Below are positions 2,069-13,294 of a stretch of 64,000 nt of DNA, one piece after another. Below the pieces are notes generated by a model. That model did no database searches. It saw only the letters and a program-made list of their open reading frames with translations, and was not told the DNA's origin. A program made the position numbers and the translations under genes. Positions within the stretch are counted from its first letter, which is position 1. Each line of letters opens with the position of its first letter. Location: contig CAJWUI010000007.1 of NCBI GenBank assembly GCA_913047695.1, positions 62,001-126,000 of the forward strand. The letters are read 5' to 3'. This DNA comes from an uncultured Bacteroidota bacterium (lineage in GTDB: Bacteria; Bacteroidota; Bacteroidia; Flavobacteriales; Flavobacteriaceae).

Positions 2069-3496
2069 TTAGTTTTTTATTGAATCTAAATATTTTCTAT
2101 TCATAAAAAAACCATTTTTTATAACGGCACGTATTTTTCTTGTGTTCCTGATGTCAATCAAAGGATTCTGATTTAAAATTATCAGGTCAGCAATATAGTT
2201 TGGTTTTATCCTTCCTAAGGAATCATGAAGATTGAAATATTTTGATGGATTTATGGTAGCTGCCTTTAAAGCCTCCAAATTAGTTAGGCCAGAGTTGGTT
2301 AATTCTTCAATTTCTTGATGTAAACTTAAACCAGGCACTAAAAATCCAATTGGAGTATCCGTTCCTGCCATAAATGTAATTCCCTTTTTGTGCATATATT
2401 TCACCATACTGGATTGCCATTTAGTGAAATCCATTCTTTCCTTATCTTCTTTAGCTTCCAGTTGGCGGATAGTTTTTCTCCAATTTTCTCCAATGTTTTT
2501 TGGAAGAAGATTTAAATATGAATCATATTCTTTAGATTTATAACTTTTCGAGGCAAAGTTTTTATAAAGTTTCAGAGTGGGAATTTGCCATGTGTCATTT
2601 TTTGCCAGGATATCTACAACATTTTTAATTTTGGAAGAATCAAGATTATAAATAGACCTCATACGTTGTTTATTATGTAATAAGGACCTAAGACTGGCAC
2701 CCCTTAAAGCGGATTTATTCTTTAAAATTGCTTTTCTTTCCTTTAAAAGATTATTGGTCATTTTGGTCATTGAAAGTTCAATATTCCTAAAATGTTCTAT
2801 GCTATTTAAGCCAGAGCTAGATGCAATTTCTACATTTATGCTAAGAGGAACATGACCCGTAAGTTTTAAATTATTTTTTTTAGCTAACTCTGTTAGAAGC
2901 TTAAATTGTGAGGGACTTAACATTTCATATGCTTTGAGAAAATCAACTTTATTTTCAATTAGCATTTCCACATTTTTTCTTAATTCATCGTCATCAACAT
3001 TTCTTATTGAAAGTACCGGATGAGTATGATCACTGCCATCATATACATTGAATTTCCCGTCTATTAAAGGTCCTGCAATTTTTAAACGAGCTTTTGTTTT
3101 AGGATTTTCTAATGAATTTTGTTTATAGCTATTTACAAAATCAAAGGGTCCTCCAGTATCCCTTAGACTTGTTATACCATGTAGTAAAAAAAGATCCATC
3201 ATCGAATCGGCCAATTCTGTTTGATATGCAAAATGTACATGTGTGTCCCAAAGGCCAGGGATTAAAAATTTAGACTCACCATCAAATATTTTATTTTTCT
3301 TAGAAATTTTAATTTCATTTGAATTAAAAATTTCAGTTATTTTATTTTTAGTAATGACGACAGTCTTGTTACTGCTAAGACCATCAATGGGATCAATTAT
3401 GTTAATATTTTCAATAACGTAGGAGTTTTCAAAAAAAATAGTTTCTTCTGAGCAAGAAAAAATAAATAATGAAAAAAAAAGAATAAAATTTTTCAT
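2069..3496 (-). CDS. Amidohydrolase-superfamily lipoprotein (imidazolonepropionase-like)
   Basis: The protein has 475 residues. A short hydrophobic signal ends in lipobox FIFSC (Cys15) followed by SEE, the acidic signal that sends Bacteroidetes lipoproteins to the surface. Metal-site residues of the superfamily are present: H86 and H88 (DTHVHF), K188, H215 (TGHVP), H235 (IEHF) and D380 (AGTDTP). The C-terminus has the usual AATINPSKYF...GRIKPNYIADLIILNQNP pattern of imidazolonepropionase- and prolidase-like hydrolases. A hydrolytic deacylase or peptidase role outside the inner membrane is inferred; the substrate is unknown. It lies 31 bp downstream of the GMC oxidoreductase on the same strand, so the two are probably cotranscribed. 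Confidence 0.88.
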   Translation of the reverse strand: MKNFILFFSLFIFSCSEETIFFENSYVIENINIIDPIDGLSSNKTVVITKNKITEIFNSNEIKISKKNKIFDGESKFLIPGLWDTHVHFAYQTELADSMMDLFLLHGITSLRDTGGPFDFVNSYKQNSLENPKTKARLKIAGPLIDGKFNVYDGSDHTHPVLSIRNVDDDELRKNVEMLIENKVDFLKAYEMLSPSQFKLLTELAKKNNLKLTGHVPLSINVEIASSSGLNSIEHFRNIELSMTKMTNNLLKERKAILKNKSALRGASLRSLLHNKQRMRSIYNLDSSKIKNVVDILAKNDTWQIPTLKLYKNFASKSYKSKEYDSYLNLLPKNIGENWRKTIRQLEAKEDKERMDFTKWQSSMVKYMHKKGITFMAGTDTPIGFLVPGLSLHQEIEELTNSGLTNLEALKAATINPSKYFNLHDSLGRIKPNYIADLIILNQNPLIDIRNTRKIRAVIKNGFFMNRKYLDSIKN

Positions 3497-3527
3497 GAAA
3501 AAGACATCTTGTTTAATTTGTTATTAG

Positions 3528-5210
3528 TTAAATATTAAGTTTTTTAAGCTCTAAAACAGCATGATCTACTGCTCTTGCAGTAAAAGCCATGTATGTCAAA
3601 GATGGATTTTGGGTCCCTGAAGAAGTCATAAAAGCGCCATCTGTGACAAACACATTTTTGACGGAATGTATTTGATTGTATTTATTTAAAATAGATGTTT
3701 TAGGATTATGACCCATTCGTGCTGTTCCCATTTCATGGATTCCTTTTCCAATAGGTGCGTTTGAATCATTAATAGTCACATCCTTACAACCTGCGTTTTC
3801 AAGCATTTCAGCTGCCTGAATTTTCCAATCTGCCTTCATCCTTTTTTCATTCTCTTTGAATTCAGCGTCAAAAACTATTTTGGGTAAACCATAAGAATCA
3901 ATTTTATTATAATCTAAAAACATACGATTTTCATGATAAGGTAATACTTCTCCAAAACCTCCCATTCCGATACTCCAATCTCCAGGTTTTAAAATAGCAT
4001 TTTTAAGATCAGAACCATAACTAAGTTCTTTGATTGCTTTTGACCAATCTCCTCTACTTGCACCTCCTTGATATCCATATCCCCTTATAAAATCAAAATT
4101 TTTTGATTTTCCACCAATATTTCTAAATCTCGGTATGTAGAATCCGTTTGGTCTTCTGCCATAATAATAGCGATCCTGAAAGTCTTCATATTTTCCTGAT
4201 GCACCACTTCCTAATTGGTGGTCCATAATGTTATGTCCTAATTCTCCAGAATCATTTCCAAGGCCATTCGGGAATCTATCTGATTTAGAATTCATTAATA
4301 TAGCGGTAGAAGCCATTGATGAGGCACATAAAAAAATAATTTTCGCTTTAAACTCAGAAATTTTTTTTGTAATTGTATTAACTACTCTTACTCCTGTAGC
4401 TTTCTTTTTGTCTTTGTTATAAATTACCTCTGAAACAACCGAGTTTGGATGTAATGTTAGTTTCCCAGTTTTTTCTGCTACCGGTATGGTAGACGAGTTA
4501 GAGCTAAAATAAGCGCCATAGGGGCAACCCCTGTCACACCTATTTCTGTATTGGCAAGCTGTTCTTAATCCACTTTTAGTTCCTTCAGTAATGTGAGCAA
4601 CTCTACCAACAGTTAAAATTCTATCTCTGTAATTCTTTGCTATGGATGATTGTAATTCTTTCTCTACACAATTTAGTTCCATGGGTGGCAAAAACTCACT
4701 ATCAGGGAGTTGAGCTAGGTTTAGAGCCTCACCACTTATTCCAATAAATTTTTCAACATAAGAGTACCATGGTGCAATCTCTTTATACCTTACTGGCCAA
4801 TCAACGGCTATACCATCTCTCAAATTTGCTTCAAAATCATCATCACTCCATCGATATGTTTGTCGTCCCCAGATTAAAGAACGACCACCTACCTGAGTTC
4901 CTCTGATCCAGTCAAAGGGTTTAATCTCATCGTAGTCATATTCTGAATCCTTATTGTAAAAATGTCTATTGCCCTCATGAATCCCCCACCTCTTTTGTTT
5001 ATTGTAATTTTTTAATTCCTCTTGAGTGGTTCTTCCACCATGTTTTACATCCCATGGGTCAAGATTCATTGTAGGATAATCTTCGATATGTTTAACCATT
5101 CGTCCTCTTTCAAGTACCAATGTTTTTAATCCCTTTTCACAAAGTTCTTTAGCTGCCCAACCACCACTTATTCCAGATCCAACAACTATGGCATCAAAGT
5201 TTTTATTCAT
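3528..5210 (-). CDS. GMC-family FAD-dependent oxidoreductase with a Cys cluster
   Basis: The protein has 560 residues. The N-terminal Rossmann motif VVGSGISGGWAAKEL (about 9-23) ends in LVLERG, which binds FAD. The second GMC signature GTQVGGRSLIWGRQT lies at 104-118. Near the C-terminus are H492 (HEMGTARMGHNP) and N535 (GTQNPSLT), the catalytic His/Asn pair of GMC enzymes. C219, C225 and C229 (CQYRNRCDRGCP) resemble the three-Cys motif that holds a 3Fe-4S cluster in membrane-linked sugar dehydrogenases. No signal peptide is evident. Such proteins are often encoded beside a small gluconate-dehydrogenase-subunit-3-like partner, and none is seen here. Likely role: oxidation of a sugar or alcohol; the substrate is unknown. 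Confidence 0.9.
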   Translation of the reverse strand: MNKNFDAIVVGSGISGGWAAKELCEKGLKTLVLERGRMVKHIEDYPTMNLDPWDVKHGGRTTQEELKNYNKQKRWGIHEGNRHFYNKDSEYDYDEIKPFDWIRGTQVGGRSLIWGRQTYRWSDDDFEANLRDGIAVDWPVRYKEIAPWYSYVEKFIGISGEALNLAQLPDSEFLPPMELNCVEKELQSSIAKNYRDRILTVGRVAHITEGTKSGLRTACQYRNRCDRGCPYGAYFSSNSSTIPVAEKTGKLTLHPNSVVSEVIYNKDKKKATGVRVVNTITKKISEFKAKIIFLCASSMASTAILMNSKSDRFPNGLGNDSGELGHNIMDHQLGSGASGKYEDFQDRYYYGRRPNGFYIPRFRNIGGKSKNFDFIRGYGYQGGASRGDWSKAIKELSYGSDLKNAILKPGDWSIGMGGFGEVLPYHENRMFLDYNKIDSYGLPKIVFDAEFKENEKRMKADWKIQAAEMLENAGCKDVTINDSNAPIGKGIHEMGTARMGHNPKTSILNKYNQIHSVKNVFVTDGAFMTSSGTQNPSLTYMAFTARAVDHAVLELKKLNI

Positions 5211-5296: not shown

Positions 5297-6925
5297 TTAT
5301 TTTAGTGATCTTATTTCTTCTTTTATTTTGGGGATTAACATTGGAGGGATACTCAAACTACTTATGCCTAAATCAATAAATTCATCTAAGTAATTAATAT
5401 TAGAAGCTAGTTCCCCACAAATGCTAATTTCTTTTTTCTTGGGAATTACCTCTAAAGCAAAATTCCGAATTATTTTTAAAACACTTTGATTACCAGATTC
5501 AATATAATGTGAAACATTTTTGTTTGTGCGATCCGCAGCCATCAAGAATTGAGCAAGATCATTAGTTCCAAAAGAAAAGAAATCTGCTTTTGAAATAAAA
5601 TCATTAGGATTTAAGGCTACATTTGGAACTTCAACCATAATTCCAACAGGAGGTAATTTTTCAATAATCTCACCCTGTTGATTTAACTCTTTTTGTTCCT
5701 TATGAATTGCAGTTATAATTTTATCCAAATCATTGGAATTTGTAATCATTGGGCAAAGAATTTTTATATCAAAATCTTTAGAAAGTTTTAAAAAAGCTCT
5801 TATTTGTGGTTTTAAAAGAGTGTCATAATAAGAAAAACCTAAACGAAGGGCTCTTTGACCCAAAGCTGGATTTTCCTCATTTTGTAAAGGCAGGTAAGAA
5901 ACCTTTTTATCACTTCCAAAATCAATAAGTCTTAAAGTGTGAGTTTTTTCAGGTAAGTTTTTTAGAATTTTAGAATAAAGTTCAAGCTGTGATTTTTCGT
6001 CTGGCATTTTATAACTTTCAAGAAAGCAAAGTTCAGTTCTCAATAATCCGATCCCGTCAGCGCCAAATCTTTTTGCTTTTAAAGCATCATCCAGTGATCC
6101 AACATTTGCCATAATATCAACTTTTTTACCAGATTTTGTAATTGCTTCATATTTTGACTTAATGAGTTGATTTTTATTTATGGATTTTTCCTTTAAAATC
6201 TCTTTCTCAAATTTTTGACTAATCTCCTTTTCAGGATTTATATGAATGCATTTATTTTTGCTATCCAGTATTATTTTATCTCCGTTTCTGACAATATTAA
6301 CGACATTTTTTACTCCCAATATATAGGGAACACCTAATGCTTTGGCAATAATTGATGAATGATCTGTAACTCCACCTTCCGTTGTAATAATGCCTAATAA
6401 GTTTGTTTGATTTATCTCTGCAATTTGGCTAGGGTCTATCTTTTCAGCAATAACTATTGAGGGATTGTTAACTTTAGAAATAACTTTTTCATCACCTAGT
6501 AACGATTTTAAAACCATATCCGAAAGCATTTTTAGATCTTCGGCTCTTCTATTGAGATACTCATCATCAAGGCTTTCTAATTCAGAAATAAAATTTCGAG
6601 TTACTTGATAATACGAATATGCAGCGTTAAAATTTTGTTTTTTTATTAAGTCTCTAGTCTGATCCAAAACTTCTGGATCGTTAACAATGCTGTTAAATGC
6701 TGTGTAAATTTCAAGCTCTTTTTCCGAAAGGTTTGCAGAAAGATTTACTTTTTGAGAATCTATTTTTTTTATTGTCTTATCTATAGCTTTTTTTAGGTTA
6801 CTTATTTCATTCTCTGAATTAATGCCTGTTTGTTTTTTAATCTCAATAGGATCATTGGAGTATAATATCTGTGCTTTACCAATAGCTAATCCCCAACTTG
6901 CTACTATTCCTTGAAGTGTTTTGAT
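5297..6925 (-). CDS. ptsI: PTS Enzyme I (PEP-protein phosphotransferase), apparent AUC start
   Basis: It transfers phosphate from PEP to HPr. The first ATG/GTG/TTG in frame is TTG 6667, but that loses 86 residues of clear Enzyme I sequence. Reading from ATC at 6925 gives (I/M)KTLQGIVASWGLAIGKA, the canonical N-terminus, and a 542-residue protein. With this numbering the phospho-accepting histidine in GGVTDHSSI is H189, the same number as in E. coli. The PEP-site LRTEL, the FGTNDLAQF motif and catalytic C503 (ISICGELA) are all present. The usual Arg of GGRTSHS is Val here. HPr's TAG stop lies in the same frame, one codon before ATC. It is the last gene of the operon. Confidence 0.92.
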   Translation of the reverse strand: MKTLQGIVASWGLAIGKAQILYSNDPIEIKKQTGINSENEISNLKKAIDKTIKKIDSQKVNLSANLSEKELEIYTAFNSIVNDPEVLDQTRDLIKKQNFNAAYSYYQVTRNFISELESLDDEYLNRRAEDLKMLSDMVLKSLLGDEKVISKVNNPSIVIAEKIDPSQIAEINQTNLLGIITTEGGVTDHSSIIAKALGVPYILGVKNVVNIVRNGDKIILDSKNKCIHINPEKEISQKFEKEILKEKSINKNQLIKSKYEAITKSGKKVDIMANVGSLDDALKAKRFGADGIGLLRTELCFLESYKMPDEKSQLELYSKILKNLPEKTHTLRLIDFGSDKKVSYLPLQNEENPALGQRALRLGFSYYDTLLKPQIRAFLKLSKDFDIKILCPMITNSNDLDKIITAIHKEQKELNQQGEIIEKLPPVGIMVEVPNVALNPNDFISKADFFSFGTNDLAQFLMAADRTNKNVSHYIESGNQSVLKIIRNFALEVIPKKKEISICGELASNINYLDEFIDLGISSLSIPPMLIPKIKEEIRSLK

Positions 6926-6928
6926 AGT

Positions 6929-7192
6929 CTACTCTTTGAAATTATTTTTAATGTATGATAATAAAGCTTCGTGTGCTTCTTTTTCGTCACTTCCTTCAGC
7001 TATGAGCATAATTTGGTCCCTAGATTTAACACCAAGAGTCATTAATGATAATGTGCTCTTCGCACTTACTTTTTTACCATTAAATTCCACAAAAATATCA
7101 GAATTAAATGTAGAGGCTTTTTTCGCAAATAAAGAGGCTGTTCTTGCATGAAAACCAATTTCGTCCTCAATATTTATTGAAAAACTAATCAT
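6929..7192 (-). CDS. ptsH: HPr phosphocarrier protein
   Basis: It carries phosphate from Enzyme I to IIA. The frame could be opened at TTG 7195, but ATG 7192 places the active-site histidine (GFHARTAS) at position 15, the position usual in HPr; the protein is then 87 residues. The regulatory-serine region appears as SAKSTLSLMTLGV. The usual Pro after HAR is Thr here. It lies 4 nt after the IIB stop, and its own stop is followed after 3 nt by Enzyme I. A dedicated HPr/Enzyme I pair inside a transporter operon suggests that this may be the only PTS energy source in the genome, but that needs the rest of the chromosome. Confidence 0.93.
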   Translation of the reverse strand: MISFSINIEDEIGFHARTASLFAKKASTFNSDIFVEFNGKKVSAKSTLSLMTLGVKSRDQIMLIAEGSDEKEAHEALLSYIKNNFKE

Positions 7193-7196
7193 CAAA

Positions 7197-7508
7197 CTAT
7201 TTTTTAATTAACAATTCTGCTTTGTCCATAATAAGACTAGGTTTTCGCAAAGCCTCATTTACACTTACATCCAAAATGTTTTTCCCTTTAAAACGATCCT
7301 TACCTGAGATAGAAACCATTTTTGCAATTATAACAACATCCGCTTGTTCAATTTGTTCTTTTGAGATCTTCACCGGAATTTTATGCCCTCCTTGTTCTTC
7401 TACACATATTTCGTGACCTCTGGTTTTGGCTTCTTTTTTTAAAGCTAAAGCTGCCATTTTACTGTGTGCTACTCCAGCTAGGCAAGCTGTAATTAACGCA
7501 ATTTTCAT
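7197..7508 (-). CDS. PTS fructose-family IIB component
   Basis: The protein has 103 residues, the normal size for a stand-alone fructose-family IIB domain. The N-terminus MKIALITACLAGVAHSKMA matches the phosphocysteine loop of fructose IIB (ITACPTGIAHTYMA), with the active cysteine at position 9. The remainder follows the family: GHEICVEEQGG, then an ADVVIIA strand and a DRFKGK segment. It accepts phosphate from IIA and passes it to the sugar during transport through IIC. It lies between IIC (10-bp gap) and HPr. IIA, IIB and IIC are separate polypeptides here, whereas most fructose systems fuse them. Confidence 0.92.
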   Translation of the reverse strand: MKIALITACLAGVAHSKMAALALKKEAKTRGHEICVEEQGGHKIPVKISKEQIEQADVVIIAKMVSISGKDRFKGKNILDVSVNEALRKPSLIMDKAELLIKK

Positions 7509-7518
7509 AATTATTTAT

Positions 7519-8580
7519 TTAGGTTTCATTTAATTCAGTATCTGCAGCATCAAGCGCATCAATATCTCTATTACTTATGCTTTTTAGAAAATTTGCTGTC
7601 AGTGCAGTAACTAGAGAACCGATTACGACACAAATAACAAAGATTAATGGCTTATCATAAAAAAACCATTGTGCAATTCCCAAGACAGGAGTACTTAACT
7701 CTAATAAAAAAATACCAGCTATAGTACCTCCAATTGTGCACCCCAAAACAGTAGCTATTGTTACACGTATAATGTCACCCACTGCTAGTGGGATTACAAT
7801 TTCAGTAAACCCTCCAATTATTGAATATATCCAGGAACTCTTCGCATAATTACGCTCTACTTTTGTGTAAAGTTTTGGTTTTAAAAATGTTGCTAAACAC
7901 ATTCCAAGAGGAGGTATGATAACAATACTTCCACAGATCCCTAATGGTACATATAAATCTAAATCCATAACTGCTGTTGCAAAGGTACTTTGAGTCTTAC
8001 TAAATGGACCTCCGTAATCAATACCTCCCAAAAATCCCATAACTGCCCCCATAATTGCTGAGCCCTCTTCGCCTAAATTAGAAAGGAAAGAGGAAATAAC
8101 TTCCATAAGCCAGGCAATTGGTGGACCAAGGAGATATACCATAAAGACTACTACTATAAGTGTACTAAAAACTGGAGCTATAAATCCCCAAGTGCTCTGA
8201 AGTATTTCTGGAAGTTCTAATTTCATAAGCATGTAGGTAGCATAACCTACTAAAATCCCACCGAGTAGTGCTCCTAGATAACCTGTATCAATTTGTTGGG
8301 CTAAAACACCTACTATGAATCCAGGAGCAATACCTGGAGTATCACTAATACTGTATGCTGTGTAGGCAGCCATAATAGGCACAAAATAAGTTAAGCCTAT
8401 CGTGCCAACATCTTTAAATATTTTCCAAATAGAACCATCTTCGTGACTTCCGCCCCCCAAAACAGCTAGACTTCCTACCATACCCCCTATAAGAAGAATT
8501 GGCAGCATATAGGAAACTCCAGTTCTAAAGTGAGTTCCAGTTTCTCTAAAAATATTTCCTGTTTCTTTCCAAAAATCCAT
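7519..8580 (-). CDS. PTS fructose-family IIC membrane permease
   Basis: The protein has 353 residues and about nine or ten hydrophobic segments. Family landmarks are present: GVSYMLPILLIGG near the N-terminus, YFVPIMAAYTAYSISDTPGIAPGF, the substrate-loop GGIDYGGPFSK (fructose IIC usually has DMGGPVNKA), and GGFTEIVIPLAVGDIIRV (usually TEGAIPFAAADPLRV). It forms the membrane channel that takes up and phosphorylates the substrate. The changes in both substrate-loop motifs suggest a substrate other than plain fructose, but this is inference. It is closely spaced with IIA and IIB (10 bp each side). Confidence 0.92.
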   Translation of the reverse strand: MDFWKETGNIFRETGTHFRTGVSYMLPILLIGGMVGSLAVLGGGSHEDGSIWKIFKDVGTIGLTYFVPIMAAYTAYSISDTPGIAPGFIVGVLAQQIDTGYLGALLGGILVGYATYMLMKLELPEILQSTWGFIAPVFSTLIVVVFMVYLLGPPIAWLMEVISSFLSNLGEEGSAIMGAVMGFLGGIDYGGPFSKTQSTFATAVMDLDLYVPLGICGSIVIIPPLGMCLATFLKPKLYTKVERNYAKSSWIYSIIGGFTEIVIPLAVGDIIRVTIATVLGCTIGGTIAGIFLLELSTPVLGIAQWFFYDKPLIFVICVVIGSLVTALTANFLKSISNRDIDALDAADTELNET

Positions 8581-8590
8581 AGTATATAAT

Positions 8591-9028
8591 TTATTGAAAT
8601 GTTTTTGAAATTTCTTCGACAGATTTAGCTTCTTCCCAAGACTTTCTTACTTTTTCCTCTAATGCTAAGCTAGCTATCTGAGACATCAAATCTATATGAA
8701 GATTATCTTCCTTTTTATTTGAATGTGGTATTGCAAGAATTAATATAAATTTAACTTCATCATCATTTTTATCCCATTCCAAACTAACGGTTCGGCAAAA
8801 ACCGAAGCTTACTTTTTTAACCGCTTTTGAAATCGCATGAGGTATTGCAATATTATAACCACAATAAGTTGACAATAATTCTTCACGTTTTAAAACAGCA
8901 TCAAAATATTCTCTTCTGTCAGATAAACATCCTTTATCGTCTAATTTGTTTACAAGAAAATTTAAAGCGTGAGATTTATTTTTTAATTCTGAGTTAAGCT
9001 CAATAAAAGCTGGAGAAAGCAGATTCAT
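8591..9028 (-). CDS. PTS fructose/mannitol-family IIA component
   Basis: The protein has 145 residues. The motif REELLSTYCGYNIAIPHA contains the phospho-accepting His64, as in EIIA-Fru (REELGSTGIG..IAIPHG). A second conserved stretch is FILILAIPHSNKKEDNLHIDLMSQIA. It takes phosphate from HPr and gives it to IIB. It is a free-standing IIA rather than being fused to HPr or IIBC. It lies between the epimerase and IIC genes with 10-bp gaps on both sides. Confidence 0.92.
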   Translation of the reverse strand: MNLLSPAFIELNSELKNKSHALNFLVNKLDDKGCLSDRREYFDAVLKREELLSTYCGYNIAIPHAISKAVKKVSFGFCRTVSLEWDKNDDEVKFILILAIPHSNKKEDNLHIDLMSQIASLALEEKVRKSWEEAKSVEEISKTFQ

Positions 9029-9038
9029 TTTTTAAAAT

Positions 9039-9740
9039 TTAATGTTGGGCTTTTTCAATAGCATTTCTACATTTTATCATCGCCTTTTGAATTCCATCAG
9101 GATCTTTAAAAATGGCGGATGATAGAACTACTACATCTGGATTACATGAAATAAGAGGATTTAAATTATCTTCCCTTATTCCACCATCAATAGCAATTTC
9201 ACAATTTGGATTTTTTTCATCAACTAGCTTCCTTGCTCTTTGTAAAAGATCCAAGCATGATTTTCTCCAACCCCAATTATCTTTACCATCGGTTTCATCT
9301 ACCCCATGAACTACAACGTGTAATCTATCAATATCATAAATTGACTCTTCAACAAATGAGAGTGGGGTATAAAGACCTATTGTTAGTCCGATCTTCATAT
9401 TTCTTTCCCTACACCAATTTATTATGTAAGCAAGTGGAGCCCCAATGAAATGTTCAGCAGGTATTATTAGCATGTTTGTTCCAACTTCAGCTAACTTGTC
9501 AATAAATAATAGATCACAAGTTTTAGTATAAATATGACATTCTATGGGTAGTTTGGTTTGCTTTCGAATTCCACTAATTATTTGATGTCCACCCATAAGT
9601 TGCATATTTTTTAAATCATGCATATCAGCTGCATCTGAGTGAATGTAATCTGCTCCAGCCACTGTGACTTGCTTTACTAAATCTGCAATATTTCCATAGT
9701 CGACATGTGCTAATCCAGCAGCTATTTTGATTTTCCTCAT
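9039..9740 (-). CDS. Ribulose-phosphate 3-epimerase-family protein
   Basis: The protein has 233 residues and is a TIM-barrel epimerase of the Rpe/AlsE/SgcE family. Metal ligands are conserved in order: H34 and D36 (IHSDAADM), H69 (IECHIY) and D185 (IAIDGGIRED). D36 and D185 are the acid/base pair that moves the C3 proton in the family. HSDAADM replaces the usual HIDVMDG, so it is probably not the housekeeping pentose-phosphate enzyme. Its place among PTS genes points to a 6-phosphate ketose (allulose-6-phosphate-like) made by the transporter. The exact substrate is unknown. Gaps to neighbours are 7 and 10 bp. Confidence 0.85.
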   Translation of the reverse strand: MRKIKIAAGLAHVDYGNIADLVKQVTVAGADYIHSDAADMHDLKNMQLMGGHQIISGIRKQTKLPIECHIYTKTCDLLFIDKLAEVGTNMLIIPAEHFIGAPLAYIINWCRERNMKIGLTIGLYTPLSFVEESIYDIDRLHVVVHGVDETDGKDNWGWRKSCLDLLQRARKLVDEKNPNCEIAIDGGIREDNLNPLISCNPDVVVLSSAIFKDPDGIQKAMIKCRNAIEKAQH

Positions 9741-9747
9741 TGATATT

Positions 9748-10905
9748 TTATTCTTCGATACTTTGACTCATTATACTTAATATTCTCTCACTATTTTTTG
9801 GATCTAACTTTTTCAATAAAGGATGAGAAAGAATTTCTTCTTGTTCATTTAAAGTAATTGCAGCACGAGATTTTGATCTAATTAAATCAGTAGTTTTTAA
9901 TAACCCAATTACTTCATTAGTTAGTGCCTTTGGAGTTTTTTCTATTCCTAGGTAAGAAGCAATATTTCTGAATTTTTCTGCAGCAATTTTTTCCTTGTAT
10001 TCCAGGAATGCAGGGTAAACAATAGCTAGAGTTTCACCATGAGCTATTCTCTGACATATTCCACCTATTATTTCACCTAGTGGATGAGGTAAATCTGCAC
10101 CACCATTTGATAAGCATATACCAGCGGCTGTATCCGCCCAAGCTAATTTTGTTCTATATTCAATAGAGTCAGGTTTTTGAATTACTTTTGGTAAATATTC
10201 AACAACTAGTCGAATTGTTTCGAGAGAAAGATATTCTGTTAAAGGAGACGTATTTTGTCCTAGATAGCTTTCAAAAGCATGAGTAAAAGCATCAAAACCT
10301 GTCGCAGCTGTTACCCTAGAAGGAACAGAAAGCATCAATTTGGGATCTATTATTGCAACTTTAGGAAAGAGATCTCTATGAAAAAGTGTAATTTTTTCTC
10401 TGTTTTTAGTATCACTTATAACGGCTGCTTGAGTACACTGTGAGCCGGTGCCTGAGGTTGTCGAAACTGCAATAAATGGTAGACTTGAATTTTTTGAGGC
10501 AATATATTCAAATGGATGATTATAGTTTGAAAAAGCATTATTCCAATTGACTATCCCATTTGATTCATATAATAAAGCAATTAATTTTGCAGAGTCCATC
10601 ACTGATCCACCACCTACGCCTAAAACAAAGTCTACTTTATTTTCACTTGCAATTTTAACCCCCCTATTGATACCTTCTAAAGTTGGATTAGGGACAATCT
10701 CATCAAAAAAACTTACAGAAACACCTGTGGAATCAAGTAGAATTTCAATTTGTTTGTAAATAGCCTTTAAACTTCCATCTTTTGGTCGAGATACTACTAA
10801 ACATTTTTTACCATAAAGAGGTGCAATTTGCTTTAAATTTTTAAGACTTCCACTACCAAAAATAAGTTTAGTGGGGGTGAAAAAATTAAATGATGAAGTA
10901 CCCAT
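9748..10905 (-). CDS. Iron-containing alcohol dehydrogenase (group III)
   Basis: The protein has 385 residues, typical for the family. The NAD(P)-binding GVGGGSVMDSAK motif lies at 96-107. All four metal ligands are visible: D205 and H209 (GFDAFTHA), H274 (LPHPLGE) and H289 (AHGE). These enzymes interconvert short aldehydes or ketones with alcohols. It is cotranscribed with the upstream tryptophanase (10-bp gap) and the downstream epimerase (7-bp gap). In this operon it may act on the sugar-phosphate product or on an aldehyde made later in the pathway; which one cannot be told from sequence. Confidence 0.9.
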   Translation of the reverse strand: MGTSSFNFFTPTKLIFGSGSLKNLKQIAPLYGKKCLVVSRPKDGSLKAIYKQIEILLDSTGVSVSFFDEIVPNPTLEGINRGVKIASENKVDFVLGVGGGSVMDSAKLIALLYESNGIVNWNNAFSNYNHPFEYIASKNSSLPFIAVSTTSGTGSQCTQAAVISDTKNREKITLFHRDLFPKVAIIDPKLMLSVPSRVTAATGFDAFTHAFESYLGQNTSPLTEYLSLETIRLVVEYLPKVIQKPDSIEYRTKLAWADTAAGICLSNGGADLPHPLGEIIGGICQRIAHGETLAIVYPAFLEYKEKIAAEKFRNIASYLGIEKTPKALTNEVIGLLKTTDLIRSKSRAAITLNEQEEILSHPLLKKLDPKNSERILSIMSQSIEE

Positions 10906-10915
10906 GTTTCTTATT

Positions 10916-12307
10916 TTATGCTATCATCTCAAACTTTGCAGTAAAATGACGTAAACTAATAATAGGACCTTCATAGGTAAGTTTTAATCCCTTCATTTTA
11001 TCTCTCCTTTTAAAGACATCTTCAAGAGCATTAATTACAACATCCATATGTCTATTTGTGTAAACTCTTCTTGAAACCGTCAGACGTACTAGTTCTAAAT
11101 CAGGGAAAATTATCTTTCCAGTTTCTTTATCTTTTTTTGAAAAAGCACAGGAACCTAGCTCAACACCCCTAACACCAGCTGTCTTATACAATTCTATTAC
11201 TAGAGCTTGACCAGGAAATTCTTTTTGAGGAATATCGGGATAAAATTTTTGTGCATCAATATATACCCCATGTCCACCCGTAGGAAGAATAATAGGTATT
11301 CCTCGTTTAAATAATTCTTCCCCAAGATATTGAACTTGTTCTATTCTATATTTAAGATATTCTTCATCAATTCCTTCTTGCAGTCCAATTGCTAGTGCTT
11401 CTAGATCTCTTCCACTCATACCTCCATAAGTAACAAAACCTTCGTTGATAATTGCCAATTGATTAATCATTGGAAATAATTCTTCGTGTCTTGTACAAAT
11501 GAATCCACCTATGTTTACTAATCCATCTTTTTTAGAACTCATTACGCATCCATCTGCATAAGAGAATAATTCTTTGGCAATTTCTTTAACCGATTTATTT
11601 TCATACCCTTTTTCTCTTTTTTTTATAAAGTAACAATTTTCTGCAAATCTTGCAGCATCTATCATTAAAGGAATATTATTTGCTTTAGCTATTGATGAAA
11701 CGCTCCTGATATTTTCCATCGAAACAGGTTGTCCTCCATTTCCATTTGATGTAACTGTAATTATAATAAGTGGAATATTTTGACTTCCCTTTTCTGAAAT
11801 AAATTTTTCAAGTTTTTCCAAATCCATATTTCCCTTAAATGGATAAGGATTTGAATTAGCTGTTCTGCCTTCTTCAATTATGAGATCTACAGGTATTGAT
11901 CCAGCAATTTCTGAGTGACCTTTAAAACTGTCAAAATGTAAATTACCCAATATATACCCACCTTTGGAGGCGTAAAGTTGGGACATTATGAAGTCTGCAG
12001 CTCTACCTTGATGGGTAGGTTGAACATATGGGAAACCCATTATATCTTGGACTGAATCTCTGAGATGATAAAAACTTGAACTTCCTGCATAAGACTCGTC
12101 ACCTGTCATTATCCCCCCCCATTGCTTACTACTCATCGCCGAAGTACCACTGTCTGTCAACATGTCTATAAATACATTCTCTGCAGGTATTTTAAAAATA
12201 TTGAAATCTGCTGCTTTAACTAGTTTCTCTCTTTCTTCTCTTGTGGTTTTTCTTATGGGCTCCACCATTTTTATTCGAAAAGGTTCTGCGTCATCAAGAA
12301 AGTTCAT
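10916..12307 (-). CDS. tnaA: Tryptophanase-like PLP beta-eliminating lyase
   Basis: The protein has 463 residues and belongs to the tryptophanase/tyrosine phenol-lyase family. The PLP lysine is K260 (SSKKDGLVNIGG). The phosphate/ring region includes LTDSGTSAMS and PTHQGR. Residues that separate the two enzymes favour tryptophanase: D126 in NLHFDSFKGHS (TnaA has FFDTTQGHS, TPL has FTTTRYHQ), VELG where TPL has the substrate-binding Arg (MERG), and H454 in LRHFTAKF (TPL has Phe). Other segments (SSKQWGGIMTGDESYAGS, GRDLEALAIGL) look more like TPL. It would split an amino acid to pyruvate, ammonia and a leaving group. It is the first gene of the PTS operon, with no tnaB-type permease nearby. Confidence 0.85.
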   Translation of the reverse strand: MNFLDDAEPFRIKMVEPIRKTTREEREKLVKAADFNIFKIPAENVFIDMLTDSGTSAMSSKQWGGIMTGDESYAGSSSFYHLRDSVQDIMGFPYVQPTHQGRAADFIMSQLYASKGGYILGNLHFDSFKGHSEIAGSIPVDLIIEEGRTANSNPYPFKGNMDLEKLEKFISEKGSQNIPLIIITVTSNGNGGQPVSMENIRSVSSIAKANNIPLMIDAARFAENCYFIKKREKGYENKSVKEIAKELFSYADGCVMSSKKDGLVNIGGFICTRHEELFPMINQLAIINEGFVTYGGMSGRDLEALAIGLQEGIDEEYLKYRIEQVQYLGEELFKRGIPIILPTGGHGVYIDAQKFYPDIPQKEFPGQALVIELYKTAGVRGVELGSCAFSKKDKETGKIIFPDLELVRLTVSRRVYTNRHMDVVINALEDVFKRRDKMKGLKLTYEGPIISLRHFTAKFEMIA

Positions 12308-12319
12308 ATGATATTAATA

Positions 12320-12345
12320 TTAGTTACACATTTATTGGTAACTAA
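12320..12345. promoter_or_regulatory. Inverted repeat, candidate operator of the PTS-tryptophanase operon
   Basis: TTAGTTAC (12320-12327), a 10-nt spacer, and GTAACTAA (12338-12345) form a perfect 8-bp-arm palindrome. It lies 12 bp upstream of the tryptophanase ATG, in the 96-bp gap shared with the divergent isomerase gene. The spacing fits a dimeric regulator of the GntR/LacI type. A TAATTTTA stretch on the minus strand overlaps its distal arm and could be a -7 box, but no matching TTG is present. No regulator gene lies nearby. Confidence 0.5.
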
Positions 12346-12403
12346 AATTACATTTTTCTCGCTTTTTGATAGCTTTTTTTAATTAATTTTAAATTTTTCG
12401 CAG

Positions 12404-13294
12404 ATGGAAAGACGTAATTTTTTAAATCAAATTGGACTTTTAGGTGGGATATCACTTGCAGGGCTATCAATCGAACCATGCATTTCATTTTCAAAATATA
12501 AAATGGGTCTTCAGCTTTTTAGTGTTCGTGATGCTATGGAAAAAGATCCAATTGAAACCCTTAAAAAATTAAAGCTAATGGGATATGAAGATTTTGAAAC
12601 TTATGGTTTCGATCCAAATACTAATAAAATTTACGGTTTAAATGTTTCTGATTTCAGTCAAATTTTAAAGGATTTAGGTCTTTCAACCACTAGTGGTCAT
12701 TTCGGATTTACTGATTATTTTAATTCTAATGAAGATAAACTTAAGTGGTTTGTTGATAGTTGCATAGAGGCATCTAAAAAACTTAAAGCGTCCTATATAA
12801 CCTGGCCATGGGTACACCCCGATCAGCGTAATTCAGAAAGTTTCAAAATTTTAGCAAACAAGCTTAATCAGATTGGAGAACAAGTAAATTCTGCTGGTTT
12901 AAAATTTGCGTATCATAATCATGGGTATGAATTCGAAGATTGGAACGGAACAACAGGTCACGAAATTTTAATTAGAGTAACAGATCCAGATTTTGTCAAA
13001 CTCCAGATGGATATGTATTGGGTTGTACATTCAGGGCAAACTCCAAAAGAGCTGGTTGACCAACACCCAGGACGTTATACAATGTGGCATATAAAAGATA
13101 TGGATAAAATTACGAGAGATTATAGTGAATTGGGTAATGGATCAATTGACTATGCTAAAATTCTTCCTGATTCTGAAAAAAGTGGATTAGAATATTATTA
13201 CATAGAGCAAGGGGGCAATTTTAAATATAATTCAATGAAAAGTGCAGCAACATCTGCAAAATTCTTTAAGAAAAATCTTCAAAACCTAATCTAA
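12404..13294 (+). CDS. Exported sugar-phosphate isomerase/epimerase-like TIM-barrel protein
   Basis: The protein has 296 residues. The N-terminus ERRNFLNQIGLLGGISLAG is a Tat-like signal (RRNFL, then a hydrophobic stretch), common in this family in Bacteroidetes. The rest is a xylose-isomerase-like/AP-endonuclease-2 barrel, with MGLQLFSVRDAM at the first strand, FAYHNHGYEF as the typical metal-binding strand, LQMDMYWVVHSGQ, WHIKDMD and YYIEQGG. Such proteins isomerise or epimerise free sugars or inositols in the periplasm. A TTG, 21 nt, TAAATTTT sequence ends 6 nt before the ATG and may be its promoter. It diverges from the PTS operon and could share its operator. Confidence 0.85.
   Translation: MERRNFLNQIGLLGGISLAGLSIEPCISFSKYKMGLQLFSVRDAMEKDPIETLKKLKLMGYEDFETYGFDPNTNKIYGLNVSDFSQILKDLGLSTTSGHFGFTDYFNSNEDKLKWFVDSCIEASKKLKASYITWPWVHPDQRNSESFKILANKLNQIGEQVNSAGLKFAYHNHGYEFEDWNGTTGHEILIRVTDPDFVKLQMDMYWVVHSGQTPKELVDQHPGRYTMWHIKDMDKITRDYSELGNGSIDYAKILPDSEKSGLEYYYIEQGGNFKYNSMKSAATSAKFFKKNLQNLI

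Follow-up and report, generated by a model that had tools for sequence, protein, structure and literature searches.

Background

What would a flavobacterium do with a phosphotransferase system (PTS) whose genes follow that of a relative of tryptophanase? The question is raised by a 64,000-nucleotide stretch of DNA, hereafter the window, which comprises positions 62001-126000 of contig C7 in G000, a 1.96-Mb genome that is 89% complete. On its minus strand, a block running from 12307 to 5297 holds eight closely spaced genes, the families of which were assigned with Pfam and NCBIfam models. Here we present an analysis of this block, which supports the view that the eight genes are inherited as a single unit, a self-contained PTS joined to an amino-acid lyase of the beta-eliminating kind. 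The closest named relatives of the locus are found in records labelled uncultured Bacteroidetes, Flavobacteriaceae and Flavobacteria bacterium MS024-2A. We infer that the window belongs to MS024-2A, which the excerpted text of PMC9122927 describes as one GTDB genus placed in the NS5 marine group.

Results

The eight genes keep their order and are inherited together

From upstream to downstream, the genes encode a lyase of the tryptophanase/tyrosine phenol-lyase (TPL) family, an iron-containing alcohol dehydrogenase (ADH), an Rpe-family epimerase, PTS IIA, IIC and IIB, HPr and Enzyme I (EI), with gaps of 10, 7, 10, 10, 10, 1 and 3 nt between them; the 1-nt gap depends on a TTG start for HPr, which also has an ATG 3 nt downstream of it. 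These genes, their order, their strand and the spacing of 1-10 nt had been described in a first-pass annotation of the DNA, and were borne out by open reading frames and by the Pfam and NCBIfam searches; also borne out was its statement that no kinase, aldolase or regulator lies inside the block. The intergenic stretch between the operon and a divergent gene at 12404 (12308..12403) is presumed, from its position and from an empty site described below, to be both the promoter side and the insertion boundary.

A scan of genome contigs for IIC found 20 loci, 19 flavobacterial and one from Clostridium. The full set, in the same order, was found in 18 of the 19 other flavobacterial loci, EI being interrupted by the contig end in L033. 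L068 also has all eight; its genome, G365, is of another genus and is listed with 7% contamination, and ambiguous bases leave X residues in the L068 proteins. The first-pass annotation had proposed looking for this gene order in other genomes, and here it recurs. A genome search gave IIC in 15/100 genomes, counting that of the window, and all 15 are among the 38 genomes of the window's genus; several of the 15 are the same contigs as named loci, and G453 was not counted as a locus additional to L034 (NBU2977). Furthermore, HPr (PF00381) occurs once in G000, as the only match in the genome, and once in each of nine other carriers out of nine (the genomes of L024, L027, L028, L029, L031, L032, L034, L036 and G365), and it is absent from all five same-genus non-carriers searched (90-95% complete). 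The recurring order and the linkage of HPr to carriers support the earlier proposal of one self-contained PTS unit, co-inherited with the lyase.

Across 12 divergent loci, mean identity to the window was 82% for the lyase, 85% for the epimerase, 83% for IIC and 75% for IIB, and 61% for the ADH, 59% for HPr, 50% for IIA and 48% for EI. Ratios of nonsynonymous to synonymous substitution (dN/dS) were computed against L018, L026 and L020 for seven genes (all but EI). The lyase has ratios of 0.014-0.029, the epimerase of 0.030-0.052, IIC of 0.038-0.089 and the ADH of 0.115-0.303, the values against L020 being rough because dS there is over 1. The lyase, the epimerase, IIC and IIB are the proteins under the strongest selective constraint. 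Given the eight-gene order in 18/19 loci and L068, together with dN/dS of 0.014-0.30, the arrangement is not due to chance.

The surroundings of the block are less constant. The window's flanking genes are common to L017-L020 and L026, and partly to L021 and L023; L024, L027-L030, L032, L034, L036 and L068 have other flanking genes, and L022, L025 and L033 have none of the window's, but their contigs are shorter. No regulator or conserved flank was seen around the flavobacterial loci, the flanks varying between sub-clades. In the non-carrier G003 (L155 6157-8847), 120 nt separate the TIM-barrel and GMC genes that flank the block elsewhere, and no operon lies between them, which makes this an empty site; the run into the GMC gene there consists of magnesium-chelatase-like, FNR-like, PhzF-like and TIM-barrel genes, named by eye. 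The other four of the five non-carriers read have none of the other queried neighbours around the GMC gene. Taken together, the differing flanks and the empty site indicate that the block behaves as a unit gained or lost.

The first-pass annotation held that homologous gene sets without the lyase and the dehydrogenase would speak against a single system. One such set is L031, in which both genes are absent, with the PTS and the epimerase kept and 2.56 kb missing relative to the close relative L032 (L031 8773-8812 vs L032 6252-8812; flanks 91 and 96% identical). The gap may be an assembly error in a metagenome-assembled genome (MAG).

In close kin, genes for a GMC oxidoreductase, an amidohydrolase and a TIM-barrel-like protein adjoin the operon (window 2069-5210, minus strand, and 12404-13294, plus strand). 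GMC matches at E<=1e-100 number 3-4 in each of six same-genus non-carriers, the five read and G013, and these flanking genes may serve another pathway. Beside the operon in G365 (L068 551-4515, minus strand) are dipeptidase-, D-threonine-aldolase- and gluconate-permease-like genes, named by eye.

The lyase forms a clade of its own

The first gene (10916..12307, minus strand) encodes a pyridoxal phosphate (PLP) lyase of 463 amino acids (aa). With a PF01212 score of 263.4 bits against a gathering threshold of 27 and a Lys at the K257 position, it belongs to the beta-eliminating lyase family, and it also passed the subfamily model NF009709 (667.6 vs 285 bits). It fell below the equivalog cut-offs for tryptophanase (591.6 vs 750 for NF053783; 531.1 vs 825.8 for TIGR02617) and for TPL (563.6 vs 720.7). 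The residues that we take to form the PLP site, namely the PLP lysine, the PLP partners and the carboxylate site, are kept in the 10 aligned operon lyases, bar one X in L068. At TPL positions T124, M379, R381 and F448, which presumably separate tryptophanase from TPL, 10/10 operon lyases have Asp, Val, Leu and His, not the Thr, Met, Arg and Phe of TPL; Asp, Val and His are as in tryptophanase, and the tryptophanase Ile at R381 is Leu in all 10.

In a midpoint-rooted tree of 51 rows, the 10 operon lyases form one group with support of 100/100 on a stem of 0.64 changes per site, separate from the E. coli/Vibrio/Photobacterium, clostridial and flavobacterial groups; L048_gen was left out of this tree and of the comparison of clade sites. 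Twenty-six positions (TPL numbering) are invariant in the operon group, their residues being shared with no more than one of the other rows. Among them are T125S and T126F, beside the leaving-group residue T124, as well as E103D and P408S, and T125, T126, E103 and P408 are uniform in 41/41 non-operon rows. These changed residues beside the leaving-group site argue for a lyase with the same PLP chemistry that would act on another leaving group than tryptophanase or TPL. The reading as an ordinary tryptophanase or TPL was rejected on the cut-offs, the separate clade and the clade-specific sites, and the name tryptophanase in the title of the first-pass annotation needs correcting in that the lyase is not simply one. 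The predicted fold of the lyase was poor (predicted local distance difference test, pLDDT, 54.8) and was not used. Among 397 genomes of the family, 45 have any lyase match, and the operon type is limited to the window, G023, G453 and G365, the last three with 84, 75 and 70% identity to the window, compared with about 47-53% for other full-length matches.

The dehydrogenase and a distinct epimerase subfamily

The ADH (385 aa; 9748..10905, minus strand) belongs to PF00465 (161 vs 31.3 bits) and reaches the threshold of none of the 17 NCBIfam models listed. Its motifs GFDAFTHA, PHPLGE and HGETL, which we take to supply the metal ligands, are intact in the window; the pattern of the third is unmatched in L025, L027, L028 and L030.

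The epimerase-like TIM barrel (233 aa; 9039..9740, minus strand) is a member of PF00834 (88 vs 21.1 bits) that missed the TIGR01163 equivalog (93 vs 212.6 bits). Its H34, D36, H69 and D185, presumably the catalytic and metal-binding set, are invariant in 16 sequences, and the GFGGQ loop, to which we assign the phosphate, is replaced in 15/15 subfamily rows by HGVDETDGKDNWGWR, by a variant or, in Photobacterium, by a shorter form. Identity within the subfamily is 56-95%, compared with 16-28% to E. coli Rpe, AlsE and SgcE. The best PDB matches of an AlphaFold (AF2) model with pLDDT 84.1 were Rpe structures, with a template-modelling (TM) score of 0.84. The reading as a housekeeping Rpe was rejected on the score, the loop and the low identity to the three E. 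coli proteins, and on sequence grounds the epimerase is a distinct PF00834 subfamily.

The phosphotransferase components

Five minus-strand genes encode the PTS: a fructose/PtsN-type IIA (8591..9028; PF00359 107 bits), a fructose-type IIC (7519..8580; TIGR01427 190.9 bits, above the cut-off of 157.55; PRK10478 198 bits), a fructose-type IIB (7197..7508; PF02302 61.6 bits; PRK10474 88.6 bits), HPr (6929..7195, starting at TTG 7195 or ATG 7192; TIGR01003 89.5 bits, above 47.9) and an EI of 542 aa (5297..6925; TIGR01417 413 bits, above 341.7). Fructose-subfamily scores of IIB (73.7 vs 76.85) and IIA (92 vs 103.5) are each slightly under the cut-off. In the window, HPr (GFHAR), IIA (IAIPH), IIB (TACLAGVAH) and EI (GGVTDHS and ICGELA) all have intact phosphorylation-site motifs. 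Across the loci, GFHAR is found in 21/21, IAIPH or VAIPH in 21/21, and the Cys motif T[AS]CLAG of IIB in 20/20 other loci, with TSC for TAC in 6 rows. The window IIC is also 50% identical to the Clostridium IIC at L035, which adjoins two M29 peptidase genes.

The first-pass annotation regarded PTS transporters as uncommon in Bacteroidota. This holds for the transporter, since PF02378 (IIC) was found in 2/178 sampled Bacteroidota genomes, own included (other IIC families being outside this search), but not for HPr, which was found in 181/247; HPr in Bacteroidota therefore probably has another role.

Enzyme I appears to start at ATC

The earlier finding of intact active sites stands for the PTS, ADH and lyase motifs and needs one correction: the first 86 codons of the full-length EI frame include neither ATG nor GTG nor TTG. 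The conserved N-terminus (IKTLQGIVAS) begins with ATC at 6925-6923, 3 nt past the HPr stop, and the first conventional start, a TTG at 6667 (residue 87), would remove much of the N-terminal domain. In 21 loci (the window, 19 others and L068), the codon at the start position is ATC in 9 and ATT in 7, though these 16 include several near-copies, so that the lineage count is only rough; it is ATG in L031, L032 and L033 and ambiguous in L030 and L068. An in-frame TTG lies a few codons upstream of this position in L025, L030 and L068. Production of HPr-EI as a single protein by stop readthrough was considered and rejected: the two frames coincide in the window and differ in L020, L024, L025 and L034, which makes a coupled ATC/ATT start likelier. 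EI thus appears to begin at ATC, a conserved non-AUG start that would be unusual.

The epimerase subfamily occurs in three phyla, in two of them beside M20 peptidases

Outside the flavobacteria, the epimerase subfamily was found in 6/206 genomes of the family of G795, a Clostridium MAG, and in Photobacterium sp. DA100 (57% identity). In a phylum draw of 299 genomes that includes G795, it was found only in G795, the other matches listed being 23-32% identical. It was absent from 344 other sampled Bacteroidota (E<=1e-25), a DNA query found no homologue in E. coli genomes, and 1 of 72,556 plasmid records matched at E<=1e-30. G795 has a second, shortened epimerase copy that looks degraded (L089 7897-8379; 63% over 156 residues) and is preceded by an open frame (7270-7905) that matches no Pfam family at 1e-5.

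Seven full-length loci were available for comparison, six clostridial (L088, L096-L100) and one from Photobacterium (L101). An M20 peptidase (PF01546) and PTS IIBC lie beside the epimerase in 7/7, the M20 domain being fused to an HbpS-like domain in L097, and an ADH 42-45% identical to the window's lies within about 4 kb in all but L097 (6/7). A TAL_FSA aldolase is present in 4/6 clostridial loci (L088, L096, L099, L100); L101 has TalB transaldolase, transketolase and RpiA nearby. Regulators are of the PRD type in L088, L096, L098, L099 and L100 and of the DeoR type in L101. Of the M20 proteins, those of L088 and L101 were scored against NCBIfam models, and both pass the Sapep-dipeptidase cut-off; the two PTS proteins scored came nearest to glucose/maltose-type models, below the cut-offs. 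The case that the first-pass annotation had named as contrary is again seen in part here: these clusters are without the lyase and have another PTS class, yet the ADH is kept in 6/7. Since ADH, epimerase and PTS occur together without it, the lyase is the flavobacterial partner of a wider set and not obligate everywhere.

A TnaA/TPL-family gene is present in 5/6 clostridial epimerase carriers and in about 29/194 others (Fisher p about 0.0006, kinship uncorrected); the E-value limits differ between the two counts, and the denominator is approximate (200 genomes drawn vs 206). This co-occurrence supports a link between the two genes no more than weakly, the lyase genes being away from the cluster.

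Discussion

A proposed pathway

We tentatively propose, with rather less than even confidence, that the cassette catabolises a sugar or polyol beta-linked to an alanine unit, of the O-glycosyl-serine or S-glycosyl-cysteine type. A phosphoenolpyruvate (PEP) phosphate relay would run from EI through HPr and IIA to IIB, and the compound would enter via the fructose-type IIC as a phosphate ester; gene content shows the relay and the importer, and the substrate we infer. By the known chemistry of its family, the tryptophanase-type lyase would beta-eliminate the amino-acid part to give pyruvate, ammonia and a freed sugar phosphate or thiosugar phosphate, the ADH may oxidise or reduce the carbon chain, and the Rpe-like enzyme would epimerise the product to a ketose phosphate of the pentose-phosphate/glycolytic pool, for use by housekeeping enzymes. 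In Clostridiaceae and Photobacterium, the ADH and epimerase pair would act on a related dipeptide conjugate, with entry by a glucose-type PTS and opening by the M20 dipeptidase. There is precedent for the chemistry: the excerpted text of PMC11742315 gives dipeptidase and then beta-lyase as consecutive steps in the breakdown of Cys-Gly-3M3SH, and that of PMC11203769 reports release of thiols in hop solution by E. coli tryptophanase. With a peptidase in the relatives, a beta-lyase in the flavobacteria and the two acting consecutively on Cys-Gly-3M3SH, a sugar or polyol beta-linked to Ser or Cys is the simplest joint reading.

In favour of this proposal are the conserved gene order in 18/19 loci and L068, the strong constraint on lyase, epimerase, IIC and IIB, the retained PLP and carboxylate sites of the lyase, the joint absence of lyase and ADH in L031, the uniformity outside the operon group of the sites changed in its lyases, and the make-up of the relatives, that is, the spread of the epimerase over three phyla, its M20, PTS, ADH and aldolase or pentose-phosphate neighbours, and the Sapep-dipeptidase scores. 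Several observations weigh against it. In L031 the PTS and the epimerase persist although both other enzymes are missing, and the ADH, although expected to meet the substrate, is among the less conserved proteins (mean 61%, dN/dS up to 0.30). Loss of the usual phosphate loop makes a phosphate-ester substrate uncertain for the Rpe-like enzyme, and the Asp/Val/His markers of tryptophanase are kept in the lyase, so that the substrate may yet be tryptophan or an indole compound. Also, the clostridial and Photobacterium clusters contain no lyase, those lyase genes that clostridial genomes have at other sites do not adjoin the PTS in the stretches read, and M20 peptidase and operon-type lyase were never found in one cluster among the loci read.

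Other readings of the operon

The alternative that survives best, which has perhaps a minority chance of being right, is a plain sugar or polyol PTS operon (e.g. for a pentitol or a rare ketose), in which the ADH would oxidise a polyol phosphate, the Rpe-like enzyme would epimerise it, and the lyase, a nitrogen or indole enzyme, would be transcribed along with them but share no intermediate. ADH, epimerase and PTS do occur without the lyase in Clostridiaceae and Photobacterium, together with a transaldolase or Fsa-type aldolase and, in Photobacterium, transketolase and RpiA; the ptsA-fsaB-gldA/frwCB set of E. coli is comparable, being a fructose-type PTS that likewise has a phosphorelay protein of its own; and L031 is without the lyase, though also without the ADH. 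Such an operon would not explain why the lyase is first in the block in 18/19 loci and as constrained as the epimerase and IIC, why it has its own clade tied to the operon and is lost jointly with the ADH in L031, or why the lyase-less relatives carry an M20 peptidase in 7/7 loci, for which a plain sugar has no need.

A substrate that carries tryptophan is improbable. Here the compound would be, for example, C-mannosyl-tryptophan phosphorylated on the mannose, the lyase would remove the side chain, and the ADH and a metal TIM-barrel enzyme would act on the C-glycoside after oxidation. The known cleavage of C-glycosides proceeds in this way, by oxidation and then a metal TIM-barrel enzyme, and the lyase keeps tryptophanase-type leaving-group residues, with adjoining residues changed. 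Known C-deglycosidases, however, are xylose-isomerase-like, and the epimerase model best matches Rpe structures; moreover, a literature search found no paper joining C-mannosyl tryptophan and tryptophanase, and a wider search listed only a kidney-function study and a mucus review.

Least probable of all is a mainly regulatory PTS, in which the relay would sense PEP/pyruvate and control the lyase with transport secondary, as might be suggested by a lyase family that yields pyruvate beside a relay that uses PEP, and by HPr being common and PF02378 IIC rare in sampled Bacteroidota, because IIC and IIB rank with the most strongly constrained of the eight proteins and the block is without a regulator.

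What a glyco-amino-acid pathway would mean

Returning to the proposed catabolism of a glycosyl amino acid, its substrate is probably other than an ordinary hexose, which agrees with the suggestion of the first-pass annotation. In its fullest form, which we consider possible and yet doubtful, the proposal would amount to a new pathway of NS5/MS024-2A marine flavobacteria: glycosyl amino acids would be imported by the PTS and split by a tryptophanase-family enzyme that has taken on the role of a (phospho)glycosyl-amino-acid beta-lyase, and a new PTS-linked epimerase subfamily common to three phyla would act next, with an M20 dipeptidase replacing the lyase at entry in the relatives. Marine flavobacteria are viewed chiefly as polymer users through TonB/SusCD systems. 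If the proposal is true, a PTS cassette that is gained and lost and brings its own phosphorelay would give them a separate route to small glyco-amino-acid compounds in dissolved organic matter. Two groups of enzymes open to assay also emerge from the analysis, the lyase clade and the epimerase subfamily, the latter of which connects uncharacterised PTS and M20 peptidase clusters of Bacillota and Pseudomonadota with the Bacteroidota operon. No description of the operon was found in the titles and abstract starts returned by open-licence literature searches, and the main text of three MS024-2A/NS5 papers (PMC9122927, PMC2668756, PMC6794258; supplements outside the search), as far as it was accessible, makes no mention of phosphotransferase, PTS or tryptophanase.

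Comparison with known systems

The E. coli ptsA-fsaB-gldA/frwCB stretch, for which to our knowledge no substrate is established, resembles the operon in its fructose-type IIC (33% to FrwC over 294 aligned positions) and IIB (41% to FrwB over 97), in having an EI-HPr-IIA type protein of its own, PtsA (window EI 28%, HPr 35% identical), and in the alcohol dehydrogenase GldA (24% to the window ADH over 136 aligned positions). In contrast to the window, PtsA is one fused protein, presumably EI-HPr-IIA, which both the window HPr and EI match, and the stretch has an Fsa aldolase and pyruvate-formate-lyase homologues and lacks a beta-eliminating lyase and an Rpe-like enzyme. The E. coli sgcXBCQAER operon likewise combines PTS IIA, IIB and IIC with an epimerase-like protein, SgcE, and with SgcX, annotated with a Zn-dependent exopeptidase domain, but SgcE is 16-19% identical to the subfamily, and the operon is without lyase, ADH, HPr and EI.

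TnaA and TPL are of the same PLP-lyase family, have about 47-53% identity to full-length flavobacterial members and share the PLP-site residues, whereas the operon lyase is set apart by its long stem (0.64), its 26 clade-specific positions and its link to a PTS; the gene downstream of tnaA in E. coli is tnaB, which encodes the permease. PatB, the beta-lyase of the next system compared, belongs to another PLP family than the tryptophanase-type lyases. The PepV and PatB route of Staphylococcus hominis, in the excerpted text of PMC11742315, is alike in that a dipeptidase and then a beta-lyase act on a beta-substituted alanine, and unlike in its uptake by a peptide transporter and its lack of a sugar. 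It is a PepV-like enzyme that adjoins the same epimerase subfamily in the clostridial and Photobacterium loci. Finally, Rpe and allulose-6-phosphate 3-epimerase (AlsE) share the fold and the metal and catalytic residues of the subfamily, which is 22-28% identical to them in E. coli and has the GFGGQ/GFAGQ loop replaced. As a PTS catabolic operon, then, the cassette varies a known kind of system and brings two enzyme subgroups with it, the lyase clade and the epimerase subfamily.

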